A DNA stretch of 64,000 nucleotides, from positions 744,001 to 808,000 of the forward strand of contig NZ_CP083740.1 in the NCBI RefSeq assembly GCF_020150455.1, written 5' to 3'. The notes under the pieces were generated by a model that worked only from the letters and a program-made list of their open reading frames with translations, was not told the DNA's origin and ran no database searches. This DNA is from Bremerella sp. TYQ1 (GTDB taxonomy: Bacteria > Planctomycetota > Planctomycetia > Pirellulales > Pirellulaceae). This document shows positions 7,097 through 14,040 of this stretch, piece after piece. A program made the position numbers and the translations under genes. Positions within the stretch are counted from its first letter, which is position 1; each line of letters opens with the position of its first letter.

Positions 7097-7480
7097 TTAC
7101 CGGGAAGTGGTGAGCTCGAAGTTGTGCTCGTTTTCGCCGGGGACCACTTCTACGCTCAGATCGGTCTTAGCGTTGTAGCGGATCGGAATTCGTACTTTCG
7201 CTTCGGAACCGGAAGGGACATCGATTCGGACTCGGTGATTACCGATGGAAGCACCACCTTGGTTAGCGGTGTACTGAAGTTCGTAGTTGCCTTCGGTGTC
7301 GGTAAAACCAATTGCTGGCCGACCACTTTCAGGCTCGAATGTCACTTCCAATCCTTCGGTCGGCTTTCCATCGACAGTGACGTTTCCGTGCACCGTGGCG
7401 AATGATGGATCTTGGCCGACGCATCCTAACGTAGCAATCAAAGCGACACATATCGCGAGTGTCATCCAACGAGATATCAT
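7097..7480 (-). CDS. Small lipoprotein with carboxypeptidase-regulatory-like fold (127 aa)
   Basis: Second lipoprotein of the DUF1559-associated type. The signal segment (MISRWMTLAICVALIATLGC) ends in the lipobox ATLGC. The mature part begins with a VHGNVTVDGKPTEGLEVTF-type strand pattern closely matching the protein at 2606 (IHGNVTYDGDPVKEGTISF), so the two are paralogues. The start at 7480 is preferred to an upstream ATG at 7555, because AGGAAG lies 5 bases before it and because the upstream choice would overlap the preceding DUF1559 gene. It is the second gene of a minus-strand pair with the DUF1559 gene, 34 bases downstream of its stop. Function is unknown. Confidence 0.82.
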   Translation of the reverse strand: MISRWMTLAICVALIATLGCVGQDPSFATVHGNVTVDGKPTEGLEVTFEPESGRPAIGFTDTEGNYELQYTANQGGASIGNHRVRIDVPSGSEAKVRIPIRYNAKTDLSVEVVPGENEHNFELTTSR

Positions 7481-7514
7481 GGGACTTCCTAACTGTGGCT
7501 TGCAGATGTGATGA

Positions 7515-8522
7515 CTAAGGGAGCTCAACTGGGCGACCGTCGTTGCGGACACCAAGCAGTTGATAAACGCCCAAGTTATTCACGTCGTAGTGAGTCGGAT
7601 CGGGATTGTCCCAATAGAAATCGCTCGTGCGATACTCGATGGTTTCCGGGAGGAAGCGAACTGATCCATCGACCAGCAAAAACTGCGAACCACCGGGGTG
7701 AAGACTGCCGAAGCCCTTCGCGTTATGGTCGGCTCCAGCGACCGTTGGACGATTCATTGGCTGGGCAAACGAAGCCAGCACGTCCATCACGCCTCGCGGC
7801 CATTTGCGTGTCGAGTTCATCGTGCCTGCCCAAACACCGCCGCGGCGAGCGTTTCGTCCGCTGGTCAGACCATCGGTGTCAGCCCCGTCACGTTCGCCGA
7901 CGAAGATCGTATTGCTGGTACCGTCGATGACGTCCCGCATCTTGATGCCACTATTTCCGTGAAACATCCCATGCGACTTCTCGGCGCCACTGATATGAAC
8001 CATCCCTTCGCTACCAATGTAATTCGACGTGGCGATGTTCTCGCTATTGCTGCCGTAAGTCGGCCAAGGGTTCAAGTCAGGCATCGTGTCGGAAGGGCAG
8101 CGATAACCATCGATCGGGGTTTTAATCAAAGCCAGGCAGTCGCTATTCGCAACACAGTTGCTAAGGCGCTGCTTGGTAACGCCGATCTGCTGATGCATGG
8201 CACTTTGTTCCATGAACGGCAGTAGCAAAGCACCCCACGACCAATGCGTGTTGGTGGTCGAATCGTGCATGAAGCCGCTGGGAAATGTTTGATACGTGTC
8301 GTGATAGTTGTGCAGCGACAGGCCAATTTGCTTGAGGTTGTTCGAGCACTGCATGCGGCGGGCAGCTTCGCGCGCTTGTTGCACGGCTGGCAGCAGCAGG
8401 GCGATCAAAACACCGATGATCGCGATAACGACCAACAATTCGACCAAAGTAAACGCATTCCGGCGGCGGGATGCCTTCACGTGCGCACCGGGGGCGCAGA
8501 GAGATTGGTAAGAGAAATGCAT
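7515..8522 (-). CDS. DUF1559 protein with prepilin-type N-terminus (335 aa)
   Basis: Second DUF1559 protein. A longer N-terminal leader of about 23 residues precedes the prepilin motif [20 protein letters not shown] and the family signature [20 protein letters not shown]. Later landmarks are [13 protein letters not shown] and the [19 protein letters not shown] segment near the C-terminus. Translation is placed at 8522 because TAGGAG sits 7 bases upstream; an ATG at 8576 would give a longer N-terminus without such a site. It probably shares a transcript with the lipoprotein gene at 7097-7480. A pseudopilin-like role at the cell envelope is inferred from the N-terminus only. Confidence 0.92.
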
Positions 8523-8590
8523 GGGGCAACTCCTAGAGGTTAGGAAGGAGGGACGCATGTGGGGGGTAAATCGCAAAAAATCACATAGTT

Positions 8591-8619: not shown

Positions 8620-8889
8620 TGGCGATAGTCTGGATAGACCTGCACGCTGGGGAAGTAGATACGTCAGATGTGGCTTTGGCGACGTGTGTAAGTGGTTGGC
8701 GTATTAGTGGTTACGATACGCGACGAGGGAAGTTTCCGGACGACCAAACCCCGCGGTCTGATGTGGTAGCAGGTGAAGACATTTCGTTGAGGTGGAATTC
8801 ACTAATTCGGAAACGATCCTTGTCGCTTCGAGACGTGTCTTAGCCCAAAGTTAGCGATTTCGCGCAGACGTGGCCAAGCCAGGGCCAAC

Positions 8890-8918
8890 TTGACAGTTCT
8901 TATTGCCACACCTAAACT
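8890..8918 (+). promoter_or_regulatory. Promoter of the cimA leader
   Basis: A perfect TTGACA (8890-8895), a 17-base spacer, then TAAACT (8913-8918, 4 of 6 consensus bases). Transcription would start near 8925, about 35 bases before the leader-peptide start at 8960 and about 230 bases before cimA. The region 8620-8889 between this promoter and the divergent one at 8591 holds no convincing gene. Confidence 0.7.
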
Positions 8919-8959
8919 TACGACTTCCATAGACGAAGAAATTGCCCCTCGGGGATACC

Positions 8960-9034
8960 ATGTTGCAGCCCACTACTGACATCGCCGTAACAATCATCAT
9001 TAGCATTGTGGGAGTACCCACAACCTCGGCGTAG
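8960..9034 (+). CDS. Isoleucine-rich leader peptide of the cimA attenuator (24 aa)
   Basis: Short reading frame ATG...TAG, 24 residues, whose second half reads AVTIIISIVGV. Five of 24 codons are Ile, three of them consecutive at 8993-9001 (ATC ATC ATT); there are also 3 Val and 5 Thr. This matches the composition of known ilv-type leader peptides, in which ribosome stalling at branched-chain codons senses charged tRNA. GGGGA at 8951-8955 is a weak ribosome-binding site very near the start. The peptide lies between a good promoter and an intrinsic terminator upstream of cimA, and its stop codon falls inside the predicted antiterminator. It is unlikely to have any function other than being translated. 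Confidence 0.75.
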   Translation: MLQPTTDIAVTIIISIVGVPTTSA

Positions 9035-9075
9035 GGACTGCGAACAATAATGATTCAAAGGTAAGCCCTGACGCC
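9006..9075 (+). promoter_or_regulatory. Pause hairpin and antiterminator of the cimA attenuator
   Basis: Two RNA structures can be drawn. A 7-bp hairpin (9006-9012 with 9017-9023, loop AGTA) sits just after the Ile codons. A 9-bp antiterminator pairs 9028-9032 with 9071-9075 and 9033-9036 with 9066-9069, with G9070 bulged. The second uses most of the 5' arm of the terminator (9063-9071), so the two are mutually exclusive. A ribosome stalled at 8993-9007 leaves 9028-9036 free; one that reaches the stop codon at 9032 covers it. Confidence 0.7.
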
Positions 9076-9097
9076 CAAACGGTTTCAGGGCTTTTTT
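9063..9097 (+). terminator. Attenuator terminator before cimA
   Basis: Perfect 9-bp stem, 9063-9071 with 9085-9093, followed by a T run to 9097. No gene other than the 24-codon leader precedes it in this direction, so it can only regulate entry into cimA. Confidence 0.85.
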
Positions 9098-9157
9098 GTT
9101 GAACGGATCGGTCCATTTCAGATGGACTGTTCGGTGCTACCCAAGCGGATCCGCCCC

Positions 9158-10780
9158 ATGAAGAAGATCGAAATCTACGACACGACGTTACGTGACGGTG
9201 CCCAGGGAGAAGGCGTCAGCTTTTCTCTTCAGGACAAACTTGCAATCACGGAGCGTCTCGACGAGATCGGTGTCGATTTCATCGAAGGGGGTTATCCACT
9301 TTCTAATGAGAAAGATGCCGAATACTTCCGGCGTGCCCAGGACTTAGACCTGAAGCATGTGAAGGTGTGTGCCTTTGGAATGACGCGCCGCAAAGGGATG
9401 GCTGCCAAAGACGACCCCGGCATGCAGGCCTTGCTTAACTCCGGCGCGCCAGTGGTTACTATCGTCGGCAAGACGCACGACTTTCATGTCACCGACGTTT
9501 TGAGGGTAACGTTGGAAGAAAACCTTTCCATGATCGAAGACTCGATAGGTCTGATGATCACCGAAGGACGCGAGGCGATCTACGACGCGGAACACTTCTT
9601 CGACGGCTGGAAAGCGAATCCTGAGTACGCTGCCCAAACGATTCGCGCCGCCGCAAAGGCCGGAGCTCGCATGGTCGTGCTGTGCGATACCAATGGTGGA
9701 AGTCTCCCTGAAGAAGTCGCCGAGCTGACGAAAGCGGCAATCGAAGCCCTCAGCGAGTTTGGTGTGCCGGTCGGTATCCATACTCATAACGATGGCGACT
9801 TAGCCGTAGCGAATGCTCTAGCCGCCGTCGATGCCGGTGCAACGCAAATTCAAGGAACGATCAACGGCTTCGGCGAACGCTGTGGCAATGCCGACCTGAT
9901 CTCCTGCGTGGCCAACCTAGCGTTGAAGAAAAAGGGGTACGAAGTCCTTGGCGGCGACGGGTTAGAGCACCTGACCGAGCTGTCGCGGTTTGTTTACGAC
10001 ACCGCTAACGTCAATCGTCGCAATAACCAGGCTTTTGTCGGGCAAAGTGCGTTCGCCCACAAAGGTGGCATGCATGTCCACGCGGTCAATCGTGCGGCAT
10101 CCAGCTATGAACATATCTCGCCGGAAGCAGTCGGCAACGAACGCCGAGTCCTGGTCAGCGAGCTATCGGGTCGCTCGAACATCGTGGCATTGACCACCAA
10201 GATGAACATCGAGCAAGATCGCGAGGTGATGGACAAAATCCTCTCGCGAGTCGTCGACTTGGAAAACAAGGGCTTCCAATTTGAAGCGGCCGAAGCGTCG
10301 TTTGAACTGCTGGTCCGCAAGACGCTCGGCACGTTCACTTCGCACTTTACAACGCTGAAGTATCACGTTGAAGTCCAAGATGTCGTGCAGCATCAAGACT
10401 TGGAGCTCACGACCGAAGCGACCGTCAAGCTGGACGTAGCTGAGACCATCAAGCATGAAGTGGGCGAAGGGGATGGCCCTATCGACGCTTTAAGTGCCGC
10501 GCTGCGTAAGGCCTTGTTGGATACCTATCCGAACCTCAGCCAAATGAAGCTGGTCGACTACAAAGTGCGTGTCGTCAACAGTGAAGCGGGAACCGCCGCA
10601 CGAACTCGCGTGCAGATCGAATGCAGCGACGAGCATGACGTATGGGGGACGATCGGCGTTAGCGAGAACATCATCCAGGCCAGCTGGAATGCGTTAGTCG
10701 ACGCGGTCGAATACAAGTTGCACAAGGACGAAGCGGCCCGCGAAACTTCCAGCACTTCCCAGGTCGCCGCAACTAACTAG
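9158..10780 (+). CDS. cimA: (R)-citramalate synthase CimA
   Basis: Condenses pyruvate and acetyl-CoA to citramalate, the first step of the threonine-independent route to 2-oxobutyrate and isoleucine. The N-terminal TIM barrel starts MKKIEIYDTTLRDGAQGEG. The metal-binding HTHNDGDLAVANAL and the motif NGFGERCGNADL are typical of the isopropylmalate/homocitrate/citramalate synthase family. The C-terminal part is a LeuA-type allosteric dimerisation domain, usually the site of Ile or Leu feedback. Length (540 aa) and the GEGVSFS variant after DTTLRDG favour the CimA group over LeuA. The ATG at 9158 gives the family N-terminus; an in-frame ATG at 9122 would add 12 residues. Expression is probably controlled by the attenuator at 8960-9097. 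Confidence 0.9.
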   Translation: MKKIEIYDTTLRDGAQGEGVSFSLQDKLAITERLDEIGVDFIEGGYPLSNEKDAEYFRRAQDLDLKHVKVCAFGMTRRKGMAAKDDPGMQALLNSGAPVVTIVGKTHDFHVTDVLRVTLEENLSMIEDSIGLMITEGREAIYDAEHFFDGWKANPEYAAQTIRAAAKAGARMVVLCDTNGGSLPEEVAELTKAAIEALSEFGVPVGIHTHNDGDLAVANALAAVDAGATQIQGTINGFGERCGNADLISCVANLALKKKGYEVLGGDGLEHLTELSRFVYDTANVNRRNNQAFVGQSAFAHKGGMHVHAVNRAASSYEHISPEAVGNERRVLVSELSGRSNIVALTTKMNIEQDREVMDKILSRVVDLENKGFQFEAAEASFELLVRKTLGTFTSHFTTLKYHVEVQDVVQHQDLELTTEATVKLDVAETIKHEVGEGDGPIDALSAALRKALLDTYPNLSQMKLVDYKVRVVNSEAGTAARTRVQIECSDEHDVWGTIGVSENIIQASWNALVDAVEYKLHKDEAARETSSTSQVAATN

Positions 10781-10830
10781 CCAGCACAACGCCGTGCCAA
10801 GCAAGTAAGGGTGTGCTCATCCCTCTCTTG

Positions 10831-10860
10831 CTGAACACCGAAAACTGAACACTGAAAACC
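10831..10860 (+). repeat. GAACACTGAAAA-type short tandem repeat
   Basis: Two adjacent 14-base units (10831-10844 and 10845-10858), CTGAACACCGAAAA and CTGAACACTGAAAA, differing at one base. They lie in the gap between cimA and valS. Related motifs flank the gap between cysD and cysNC (46685-46789), which suggests a dispersed repeat family. Confidence 0.6.
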
Positions 10861-10884
10861 AATAACTTATAGCGAGTCATACTG

Positions 10885-13800
10885 GTGGCGTTTTCCGCTC
10901 AGGACATTCCCAATCGTTTCGATTTTTCGATCTCGCCCAAAATCTACGAATACTGGGAATCGCAGGGATTCTTCCATAGCGAGCCAGATCCGAATCGCGA
11001 ACCGTTCACGATTGTCATTCCACCACCCAACGTGACGGGGGCCCTGCATCTGGGGCATGCTCTGAACAACACGCTGCAAGACGTGTTGATTCGCTACAAG
11101 CGACTGAAGGGCTTCAATACGTTGTGGATGCCTGGCACCGACCACGCTGGGATCGCAACCCAGGCCGTCGTCGAAAAGCGTATCTTCGAAGCGGAAAAGA
11201 AAAGCCGTCACGATCTCGGCCGGGAAGAACTCGTCAAACGCATCTGGGATTGGAAAGATCAATACGAGGCCCGCATTCTTGGGCAGCTAAAGCGTCTCGG
11301 CAGCAGCTGCGACTGGGATCGAACGCGGTTCACGCTCGACGACACCTGTGCTCGGGCCGTGCGTCGGACCTTCTACGATTTGTTCGCTAAGCAGTGGATC
11401 TACAAAGGAAAACGCCTGGTCAACTGGGACACGTTCCTGCAGACGGCGGTGAGCGACGATGAAGTGTTTCACGAAACGACCGACGGTAGTTTTTGGCACT
11501 TCAAATACCCAGTCATCGATCCAAAGCCAGGTGAGCCGAAGTTCGTGACCATCGCCACAACGCGTCCTGAAACGATGCTTGGGGATACGGCCGTCGCAGT
11601 GCATCCTGATCCTGAAAAAGCACTGAGCACGATCGAGACGGAATTGCAAGAGAAGCTCAAAGAAGCTTCCGGCAAAGACAAGCCTGCCATTCAAGAGCAG
11701 CTGGACCAAATTGCCGAACGTCGCGAGGCAATGTTGCCACAGTTGATCAAGCTGCGCGACATGGCGCTCGACGGTCGCAAGCTGATGCTGCCGTTGGTCG
11801 ATCGCGAGATCCCGCTGGTGGCTGATCAATGGGCTAAGCCTGAACTTGGTTCCGGTTGCGTGAAGATTACGCCTGCCCACGACCCGAACGACTATGAAGT
11901 GGGACGTCGGCAAGATCTGCCGATGATCAACATCCTCAACTCGAACGGGACCATGAATGAAACGACCGGCGAGTATGTCGGACTGACCATTCCCAAGGCT
12001 CGTAAAGCGGTCGTGGACGATCTCGAGAAGCTGAGCTTGCTCGAAAAGATCGAAGACCGCAAGATCGAGCTGGCCTACTCGGATCGTAGTAAGACGCCGA
12101 TCGAGCCGTATCTGGCCGATCAGTGGTTCATCAAGATGGACCAGTTGGCTCAAAGCGCGATGGACGCGGTGAAGGATGGCCGCGTGAAGATCTTCCCCCA
12201 GCGATACGCCAACGGCTACCTCGACTGGCTGAGCGAAAAACGAGATTGGCCGGTCAGCCGTCAGCTTTGGTGGGGACATCAGATTCCGATTTGGTCGCAG
12301 GAATGTGCCTACAAGGATGACCACGACAAGCTGGTCGCCCAGTTGGAAGCGGATCCCGACATTCAAAGCGGCAAAGCCAACTTCCAGATCGAACGTGACG
12401 AAGAGTTAGAAGCGGCCGAAAAGATCGGCACAATCCAAGGCGCCGCTCGCGTGACGATGCCGTACGCTCAAGTTCACGTCTGCATCGCGGAGGAGAATGC
12501 CCAACTGGCCCAGAAGTACGAAGCGATGGGCTTTGTGCGAGAGGAAGACGTGCTCGATACCTGGTTCAGCTCTGCGTTGTGGCCACACTCGACACTGGGT
12601 TGGCCGGAAAAGACACCGGAGCTGGAGTACTTCTATCCGACCAGCACGCTGATCACCAGTCGCGATATTATCACACTGTGGGTTGCCCGAATGGTGCTTG
12701 CTGGCATCAACAACATGGGCGAAGTGCCGTTCCGCGAAGTGTTTATCCACCCGACCATCCTTGATGGCCTCGGCGAACGAATGAGCAAGTCGAAGGGGAA
12801 TGGTGTCGACCCGCTCGACGTGATCGAAAAGTTCGGTGCTGACTCGCTTCGATTCGGTTTGGCTTACCTGACCACCGAAACGCAAGACGTGCGGATGCCG
12901 GTGCAGTTCGAGTGCCCTCACTGCAACGCCCTGATCGATCAAACGAAGAAGAATCGTCAGCTACCGCGTGTCGAATGTAAGAAGTGTAACGAGCCGTTCA
13001 GCACGCAGTGGGCCGAGAAGGCGGAAGACAAAGCGTTGCCACGTGGAGCCGTTGTCAGCGAACGGTTCGAGCTAGGTCGTAACTTCTGCAATAAGTTGTG
13101 GAACGCGGCCCGCTTCACGATGATGAACCTCGAAGGCTACACGCCGGGGACCGTTTCAACCGACGAGATGCAGCTGGAAGATCGCTGGATCTTGTCGCGG
13201 CTTTATACGGTCAGCCAGGAAGTGACCCGGTGCTACGAAAGCTACGGCTATGCCGATGCGGCTCGAGCCACGTACGACTTCGCCTGGGACGAGTTCTGCA
13301 GCTTCTATGTCGAAATCCTCAAAGAACGTTTCCAGGACGAGAAGCAGCGACCTGCCGCACAGCGTGTGATCACGTACGTGCTTGATGCAATGCTGCGTTT
13401 GTTGCACCCGATCATTCCCTTTATCACGGAAGAGATCTGGCAAACGCTCGGCAAGATTGCTCCGCAACGTGGTATTGAAGAGCTGACCGACGCGACCGAA
13501 AGCATCATGCTTTCCAACTGGCCAGAAATCGATCCGAAGTGGGAAGACCAATCAATCGAACGTCAATTCGCCGTGTTCCAGGAAACGCTCGGTAGCCTTC
13601 GCGAGATTCGCAGCCGTCAGAACATTGCACCGAAAGACACGATTGAATTTGTGATTCGCTGCGACGAGCCGACTGCCAAGCTGCTGGAAACGATGTCTCC
13701 TTACTTCCTTTCGATGGCGAACGCTAAAAGCTGCGGCTTGGGCAAGGATGTCGCTGTTCCAGAAACGAATGCGACGATCACCGTGGGTGACATGGAGATC

Positions 13801-14040
13801 TTCGTCGACTTGAATGACTTCATCGACGTTGAAGCGGAAATCGAGCGGAACGAAAAGCAGGAGCAGAAGCTGCAGCAATTGGTGACCAGCAAGGAAAAGA
13901 AGCTGGGCAACGAGAGCTTCGTCAGCCGAGCTCCGGCCGACATCGTGGCACGCGAACGCGAAAGCCTCGATCAGGCGAAGCAAGAGCTCGAACGAACGCA
14001 AGCGGCTCTTGCCAAGCTACGAGAATCCGCCTCGAAGTAA
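10885..14040 (+). CDS. valS: Valyl-tRNA synthetase (1051 aa, with insertions)
   Basis: Charges tRNA-Val; class I synthetase. The HIGH motif is H55-L-G-H58 within PPPNVTGALHLGHA, and the KMSKS motif is 633-636 in the variant GERMSKSKGN. The editing domain holds TTRPETMLGDTAV and GSGCVKITPAHDPNDYEVG. The C-terminal end is a coiled coil (about 985-1050). Two features enlarge it: a Lys/Glu-rich helical insertion of about 40 residues in the editing domain (about 250-300), and a zinc-ribbon-like insertion C677-x2-C680-x17-C698-x2-C701 soon after the KMSKS loop. The start is a GTG at 10885; no strong Shine-Dalgarno is visible. It follows cimA on the same strand after 104 bases and could be co-transcribed with it. 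Confidence 0.96.
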   Translation: MAFSAQDIPNRFDFSISPKIYEYWESQGFFHSEPDPNREPFTIVIPPPNVTGALHLGHALNNTLQDVLIRYKRLKGFNTLWMPGTDHAGIATQAVVEKRIFEAEKKSRHDLGREELVKRIWDWKDQYEARILGQLKRLGSSCDWDRTRFTLDDTCARAVRRTFYDLFAKQWIYKGKRLVNWDTFLQTAVSDDEVFHETTDGSFWHFKYPVIDPKPGEPKFVTIATTRPETMLGDTAVAVHPDPEKALSTIETELQEKLKEASGKDKPAIQEQLDQIAERREAMLPQLIKLRDMALDGRKLMLPLVDREIPLVADQWAKPELGSGCVKITPAHDPNDYEVGRRQDLPMINILNSNGTMNETTGEYVGLTIPKARKAVVDDLEKLSLLEKIEDRKIELAYSDRSKTPIEPYLADQWFIKMDQLAQSAMDAVKDGRVKIFPQRYANGYLDWLSEKRDWPVSRQLWWGHQIPIWSQECAYKDDHDKLVAQLEADPDIQSGKANFQIERDEELEAAEKIGTIQGAARVTMPYAQVHVCIAEENAQLAQKYEAMGFVREEDVLDTWFSSALWPHSTLGWPEKTPELEYFYPTSTLITSRDIITLWVARMVLAGINNMGEVPFREVFIHPTILDGLGERMSKSKGNGVDPLDVIEKFGADSLRFGLAYLTTETQDVRMPVQFECPHCNALIDQTKKNRQLPRVECKKCNEPFSTQWAEKAEDKALPRGAVVSERFELGRNFCNKLWNAARFTMMNLEGYTPGTVSTDEMQLEDRWILSRLYTVSQEVTRCYESYGYADAARATYDFAWDEFCSFYVEILKERFQDEKQRPAAQRVITYVLDAMLRLLHPIIPFITEEIWQTLGKIAPQRGIEELTDATESIMLSNWPEIDPKWEDQSIERQFAVFQETLGSLREIRSRQNIAPKDTIEFVIRCDEPTAKLLETMSPYFLSMANAKSCGLGKDVAVPETNATITVGDMEIFVDLNDFIDVEAEIERNEKQEQKLQQLVTSKEKKLGNESFVSRAPADIVARERESLDQAKQELERTQAALAKLRESASK

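Follow-up and report, generated by a model that had tools for sequence, protein, structure and literature searches.

An isoleucine-rich leader peptide and a predicted transcription attenuator upstream of cimA in Bremerella and related planctomycetes

The window analysed here is a stretch of 64,000 nucleotides from Bremerella sp. TYQ1. Its + strand carries cimA (9158..10780) followed by valS (10885..14040), the latter coding for valine--tRNA ligase (NF004349, 1060 bits). The sequence-only reading had named the first of these genes cimA, and its product indeed scores 661.3 bits with TIGR00977 for a cut-off of 450, which qualifies it as a citramalate synthase. For the start of cimA, the alignment makes position 9158 likely, rather than the in-frame ATG at 9122, because the frame from this ATG is broken by a 1-nt difference from the other members of the genus. 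Isoleucine codons upstream of this gene had been judged sensible since citramalate leads only to isoleucine. This holds for citramalate itself, but the genome also encodes an ilvA-type threonine dehydratase (TIGR01124, 825 bits), so that cimA is one of two isoleucine routes. Own-genome ilvA has neither a terminator near its start nor an Ile leader of the cimA type. On the minus strand, 7515-8576 encodes a protein with a prepilin-type N-terminus and an H-X9-DG C-terminal domain; a 152-aa frame (7097-7555), without NCBIfam match, adjoins this gene.

Upstream of cimA, a TTGACA-17-TAAACT promoter and a 24-codon frame with five Ile, three of them consecutive, had been described, and both are read in the sequence as claimed. 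The promoter (8890..8918, + strand; hexamers 8890-8895 and 8913-8918) was assigned from the consensus, with 10 of 12 matches in the promoter scan, and from the genus alignment. The scan returned 2 promoter-like sites for 1.0 expected and is by itself weak evidence. The leader frame (8960..9034, + strand) runs from the ATG at 8960 to the TAG at 9032-9034 and translates directly to MLQPTTDIAVTIIISIVGVPTTSA. Its Ile codons are numbers 8, 12, 13, 14 and 16 (positions 8981-8983, 8993-9001 and 9005-9007), and three further codons are Val. When ATG frames ending 40-95 nt before the terminator tract were sought in dinucleotide shuffles, at least five Ile occurred in 1/3000 and at least four in 12/3000. 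Thus the short leader contains a cluster of cognate codons of the kind that characterises attenuators (five Ile in 24 codons, gene-specific across genomes). Its stop codon lies 123 nt before the start of cimA, with a terminator in between. A search of this region against Rfam gave two matches, both sub-threshold; the second is Thr_leader (RF00506), whose 16.1 bits fall well short of the 55 required for gathering, and membership of that family was rejected.

The earlier span (8890..9034) ended at the leader stop codon and left out the main functional part, i.e. the terminator. This predicted intrinsic terminator (9063..9097, + strand) consists of a hairpin of -18.9 kcal/mol and six T at 9092-9097, and is placed, as in attenuators, between the leader and the first gene. 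It was missed by the terminator scan, probably through the loop limit of the latter, and was revealed by folding, in which the pairing of AAGCCCUGA and UCAGGGCUU encloses a GCC/GGU inner stem. The 5' part of the hairpin, strand 3 (AAGCCCTGACGCC, 9063..9075, + strand), is common to the terminator and to a predicted antiterminator. The 5' strand of the antiterminator, strand 2 (GGCGTAGGG, 9028..9036, + strand), includes the leader stop codon and has 9066-9075 as its partner. At the RNA level CCCUGACGCC (9066-9075), which forms the 5' arm and loop of the terminator, has GGCGUAGGG (9028-9036) as an alternative partner, a single G being bulged, and the stop codon UAG lies inside the latter strand.

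The two pairings were compared by folding, with assumed ribosome edges. RNA freed from 9016, as it would be behind a ribosome held at the Ile codons, folds into the antiterminator (-16.7) while strand 4 is still to be made; when RNA is freed only from 9047, corresponding to a ribosome on the stop codon, the terminator alone can form (-18.9). By computation, the antiterminator and the terminator are thus mutually exclusive, the former becoming available if the ribosome stalls on the control codons. For the RNA from 9016 on, the terminator is slightly the more stable fold at equilibrium (-23.8 vs -22.5 for the antiterminator), and antitermination must therefore be kinetic. A small hairpin GTGGG/CCCAC (9008..9021, + strand), also found by folding, is located between the Ile codons and strand 2, and could possibly act as an RNA polymerase pause hairpin. 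A strand 1 forming a hairpin with strand 2, which would impose termination when the leader is not translated, is seen in the own genome (G000); no conserved strand 1 was seen by eye in the alignment of the other genus members.

The genus alignment comprises the eight members with cimA, i.e. the own genome and seven others. Both promoter hexamers are invariant in 8/8, and the promoter block 8885-8922 has 31/38 invariant columns with a mean pairwise identity of 94%. Strand 2 is invariant in 9/9 columns and strands 3-4 in 31/35. The flanks vary: identity is 42% over the 67 nt upstream of the promoter, where 4 columns are invariant, and 52% over the 45 nt that separate the terminator from cimA, where 8 are. 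An alignment of this kind had been proposed as a check, and it shows the promoter, the ATG, the stop region and the terminator to be kept; the number of Ile codons varies. The leader length differs among members by an in-frame 9-nt gap. Genus members also have hairpins where the small hairpin lies (9008-9021), but with changed loops and, in G004 and G008, a shifted stem. The triple Ile is private to the own genome. The leaders of G001, G002, G005 and G007 contain 3, 4, 2 and 3 Ile respectively, with 4 or 5 Val each, and those of G006, G008 and G004 contain 6, 6 and 4 Ile. From these sequences, what the genus conserves in the leader is the frame and its Ile/Val content, not the triple Ile. The proposal of an attenuation-type leader before cimA is supported.

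To look beyond the genus we used 40 genomes of relatives: cimA is complete in 37 and fragmentary in one, and the remaining two have just a leuA-like paralogue. Since the 37th cimA is at a contig end, 36 upstream regions were examined. A terminator in the style of the cimA leader was found in 30/36 by eye and in 32/36 by the detector. A fixed rule was applied, requiring a terminator and a frame that ends 40-95 nt before the T tract and has at least four Ile among its last 25 codons. Under this rule a leader is present at 20/36 cimA of the relatives, at 37/78 named cimA loci and at 6/22 cimA of a phylum-wide draw, three sets that partly overlap. Among 129 pooled cimA loci distinct in the 150 nt upstream, 79 have a leader and a terminator, the leader being here the highest-Ile frame with at least two Ile; the 50 others, which include the cultured strains L213, L217, L235, L239 and L250, have none under the rule. 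In distant relatives the common sequence is reduced to strand 2 and the terminator, with an Ile-rich frame upstream of them.

The extent of the element was surveyed in a class draw of 148 genomes, 138 of which have cimA. For 102 loci, taken regardless of leader, we counted leaders with at least three Ile near a terminator: 31/34 in f21, 11/20 in f65, 2/3 in f66, 1/3 in f68 and 14/21 in the order. The value for family f64 is 0/21, and some members of the order have neither frame nor terminator upstream of cimA. Thus the expectation that relatives share the Ile-rich frame holds in that it recurs across the order and the class, but fails for f64 and for these order members. Outside the class, G154 and G139 have a leader among 19 genomes with cimA (one of them with only 45 nt upstream).

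Between genera the leader peptides resemble one another in little more than their Ile/Val content and the end for which strand 2 codes. Along the cimA leaders Ile is most frequent (0.37-0.46) at a distance of 6-9 codons from the stop, and its frequency is only 0-0.05 at the final two codons, so that stalling of a ribosome at the Ile cluster would keep most of strand 2 accessible. As a whole these leaders have 20% Ile, an inflated share since they were chosen by Ile count; the positional profile, the cross-gene comparison and the Val test given below are independent of it. In family f65 (e.g. L396, L422, L424 and L427) several cimA leaders share AAQGVR-like residues after the Ile cluster; they may be fixed by RNA pairing, or may be an arrest motif.

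The alternative pairing was then assayed on many loci. In 64/79 cimA loci the strand that forms the best duplex with the 5' arm of the terminator includes the leader stop, against 30.5 expected from shuffled upstream regions; for leuA this holds in 31/35 loci, against 12.2 expected. Only 47/79 cimA loci combine a covered stop with an energy that ranks in the best 5% of the shuffled ones, and a locus taken singly is therefore often not significant. For 57 thinned cimA loci the stop-codon window binds the strand 3 of the same locus more stably than that of another locus (-17.0 vs -14.17; 0/5000 permutations), and the same is observed for 27 leuA loci (1/5000 permutations). The terminator helix, compared over 25 loci, has 7/12 pairs changed on both sides, and its stem has a covariation score of 0.263 vs 0.179 when shuffled; in these 25 loci one of five covariation measures, that of further pair types, is not above the shuffles (135/500).

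The residues of the leaders follow the gene downstream. Leaders with at least four Ile, present at 20/36 cimA, were found at 0/40 leuA, 0/20 ilvB, 0/19 trpE and 0/30 DAHP synthase genes. Conversely, at least five Leu are found at 32/40 leuA (own genome included) vs 0/39 for ilvB and trpE together; at cimA such frames are rare (2/36, 5/78 for the named loci and 1/22 phylum-wide). Frames with at least four Phe/Tyr/Trp near a terminator are found at 26/30 DAHP synthase genes vs 4/115 at the other genes (cimA 1/36, leuA 2/40, ilvB 1/20, trpE 0/19). In these relatives the leader element was found upstream of neither ilvB (0/20) nor trpE (0/19).

A covariance model of the element recovers these counterparts. 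In the own genome it matches cimA with 68 bits and gives ten weaker matches, of which three (L041-L043) were examined. L042 (G000:C1:2874262-2877363) has a Leu-run leader, MNQNLLLLPLLLITPGC (locus 1480-1533), and a terminator before leuA. L041 (G000:C1:2617680-2620787) has a Phe/Tyr/Trp leader, MNNWQFYFGFFFTYFPSRAEDSV (from locus 1473), and a terminator before a gene for DAHP synthase (NF006421, 479 bits). L043 is an apparently ordinary terminator. Among the 40 secondary matches obtained from relatives, cimA and leuA are the neighbours of 10 each and DAHP synthase of 15; the other 5 are near none of the three genes. The aromatic leaders contain Phe and Tyr, often with Trp as well; many of those outside the genus end in a GRGAGGG-like (Gly/Arg-rich) tail.

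Taken together, the element very probably controls cimA, and probably cimA-valS, by ribosome-mediated transcription attenuation. The frame, the terminator, the alternative pairing, their conservation and the gene specificity are computed; we infer the start of transcription, the translation, the stalling and the response to isoleucine. Transcription would start near 8925, as placed from the -10 hexamer, and a ribosome would translate the Ile-rich leader. With charged Ile-tRNA it would reach the stop at 9032-9034 and cover strand 2; strand 3, left free, would pair with strand 4, and transcription would stop at 9092-9097. When charged Ile-tRNA is short, the ribosome would stall 27-51 nt ahead of the stop, at the Ile codons. 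This would expose strand 2 (9028-9036), which would pair with 9066-9075, so that no terminator forms and cimA is transcribed. Most likely, the cell would in this way make the enzyme only under a shortage of isoleucine.

Ribosome-mediated attenuation explains all parts of the element, and other explanations fit less well. It could be proposed that a constitutive promoter and an ordinary terminator simply lie between two units, the frame being there by chance. The apparently ordinary own-genome terminator L043 does have the same AAGCCCTGA...TCAGGGCTT style, and the number of sites in the promoter scan hardly exceeds chance. But the terminator sits between a conserved promoter and cimA, and the leader residues match the gene product at cimA, leuA and DAHP synthase, no such leader being found at ilvB and trpE. 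Attenuation is favoured over a chance frame because the leader residues follow the downstream gene in this way, and the latter appears highly improbable.

A leader RNA that binds tRNA or a metabolite (T-box or riboswitch), instead of a translated leader, would account for a structured leader linked to a terminator before an amino-acid gene. We consider it just as improbable: neither in the window region nor in 13 loci does any Rfam family reach its gathering score, no conserved non-coding aptamer is seen upstream of the terminator, and what distant relatives keep is strand 2 and the terminator downstream of an Ile-rich frame. Scarcely more probable is a function of the small frame as a protein, or a control of cimA by translation coupling instead of termination. 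An open frame with a conserved promoter would agree with this. However, across genera the peptides are alike in little but Ile/Val content and their strand 2-encoded end, and 123 nt with a terminator separate the leader stop from the cimA start.

We return to the attenuator and to the gene behind cimA. valS, looked for within 700-1500 nt only, follows cimA in 28/30 loci of the relatives and in 61/80 named loci, on the same strand in 61/61 of the latter. In the own genome the detector found no terminator between the two genes (10600-11000). From this arrangement valS is probably the second gene of the attenuated operon. The Val content of the leaders is 13.5% with valS next (75 thinned leaders) vs 5.3% without (23), and their Ile content is 20.1% vs 22.5% (thinned set). 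The Val difference has the same direction in three taxonomic strata, and 0/5000 stratified permutations reach the observed value. Among pairs of nearest relatives the partner with valS is richer in Val in 21/25 cases, or 11/14 with distinct partners. These data support the view that the Val codons of the leader fit the downstream valS better than cimA.

The attenuation reading can be extended accordingly to a leader that senses both amino acids, Ile for cimA and Val for valS, in one attenuator serving a two-gene operon. The Val enrichment next to valS, its consistency over the strata and the nearest-relative pairs favour this extension, as does the fact that leaders were selected by Ile and not by Val. 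On the other side, four of the 25 pairs go in the opposite direction, one of the three strata lumps several families, Val and Ile codons differ by a single change, and co-transcription of cimA and valS is a prediction. Moreover, of the 20 residues tested, Val (up) and Arg (down) are both at the extreme of 2000 permutations, Arg being rarer with valS next (7.2% vs 11.9%; 98 thinned leaders). This opposite and equally extreme shift calls for caution, composition or clade effects being possible. On balance a leader sensing both amino acids seems to us as good a bet as a leader that does not.

A wider proposal, which we make tentatively and hold to be slightly less probable than the preceding one, is that in Planctomycetia the leader peptide spells out the contents of the operon: Ile for cimA, Val for valS, and few Val when valS is not adjacent. 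With the Leu leaders of leuA and the Phe/Tyr/Trp leaders of DAHP synthase, attenuation would then be a main amino-acid control at committed steps, with the stop codon of the leader as the switch inside the antiterminator. The presence of the element in many genera, its near-constant geometry and its Leu and aromatic counterparts predict how amino-acid synthesis is set in planctomycetes. With the link between Val codons and valS, the evolution of a leader towards the genes under its control becomes cleanly testable.

Ribosome-mediated attenuation is a well-known form of gene control in proteobacteria, actinobacteria and firmicutes, the ilv and leu operons of proteobacteria (ilvGMEDA, leuABCD) being controlled by leader-peptide attenuators. 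The latter are reportedly treated by Vitreschak in 2004. The cimA element resembles them by a short leader with runs of cognate branched-chain codons, a terminator and an alternative antiterminator. It differs by its target, cimA, by control codons that are mainly Ile (with Val), and by the stop codon placed inside the antiterminator strand; moreover, no such leader was found at ilvB in 20/20 relatives.

The sequence-only reading knew of no description of such a leader for cimA in planctomycetes, and our comparison with the literature found none either. Among the papers found by literature search, titles and the beginnings of abstracts contain no report of leader-peptide attenuation for planctomycetes or cimA, although the survey by Lopatovskaya and colleagues (2010) and Vitreschak 2004 could mention planctomycetes. 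Leader genes in Planctomycetes are counted in PMC4833913, in the main text of which isoleucine, cimA and citramalate are absent. The mechanism itself is classical; the cimA target and the planctomycete host are apparently unreported.

The nearest published relatives are these ilv/leu leaders and, for DAHP synthase, an attenuator of Corynebacterium. The ilvB attenuators of Actinobacteria (PMC1262725, PMC10272879) have an Ile/Val/Leu-rich leader before a branched-chain gene, with a terminator. The former paper mentions neither cimA nor planctomycetes, and the latter does not mention planctomycetes. The cimA attenuator is like these in its leader and terminator, and differs in gene and phylum. 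For the DAHP synthase leaders, the counterpart is the aroR-aroF attenuator of Corynebacterium glutamicum, in which an aromatic leader peptide precedes DAHP synthase (Neshat 2014, as cited in PMC11802643). The planctomycete leaders are similar in being aromatic and preceding this gene. The phylum is unrelated, and they differ by their Phe, Tyr and frequent Trp and by the Gly/Arg-rich tail that they often have outside the genus of the window.
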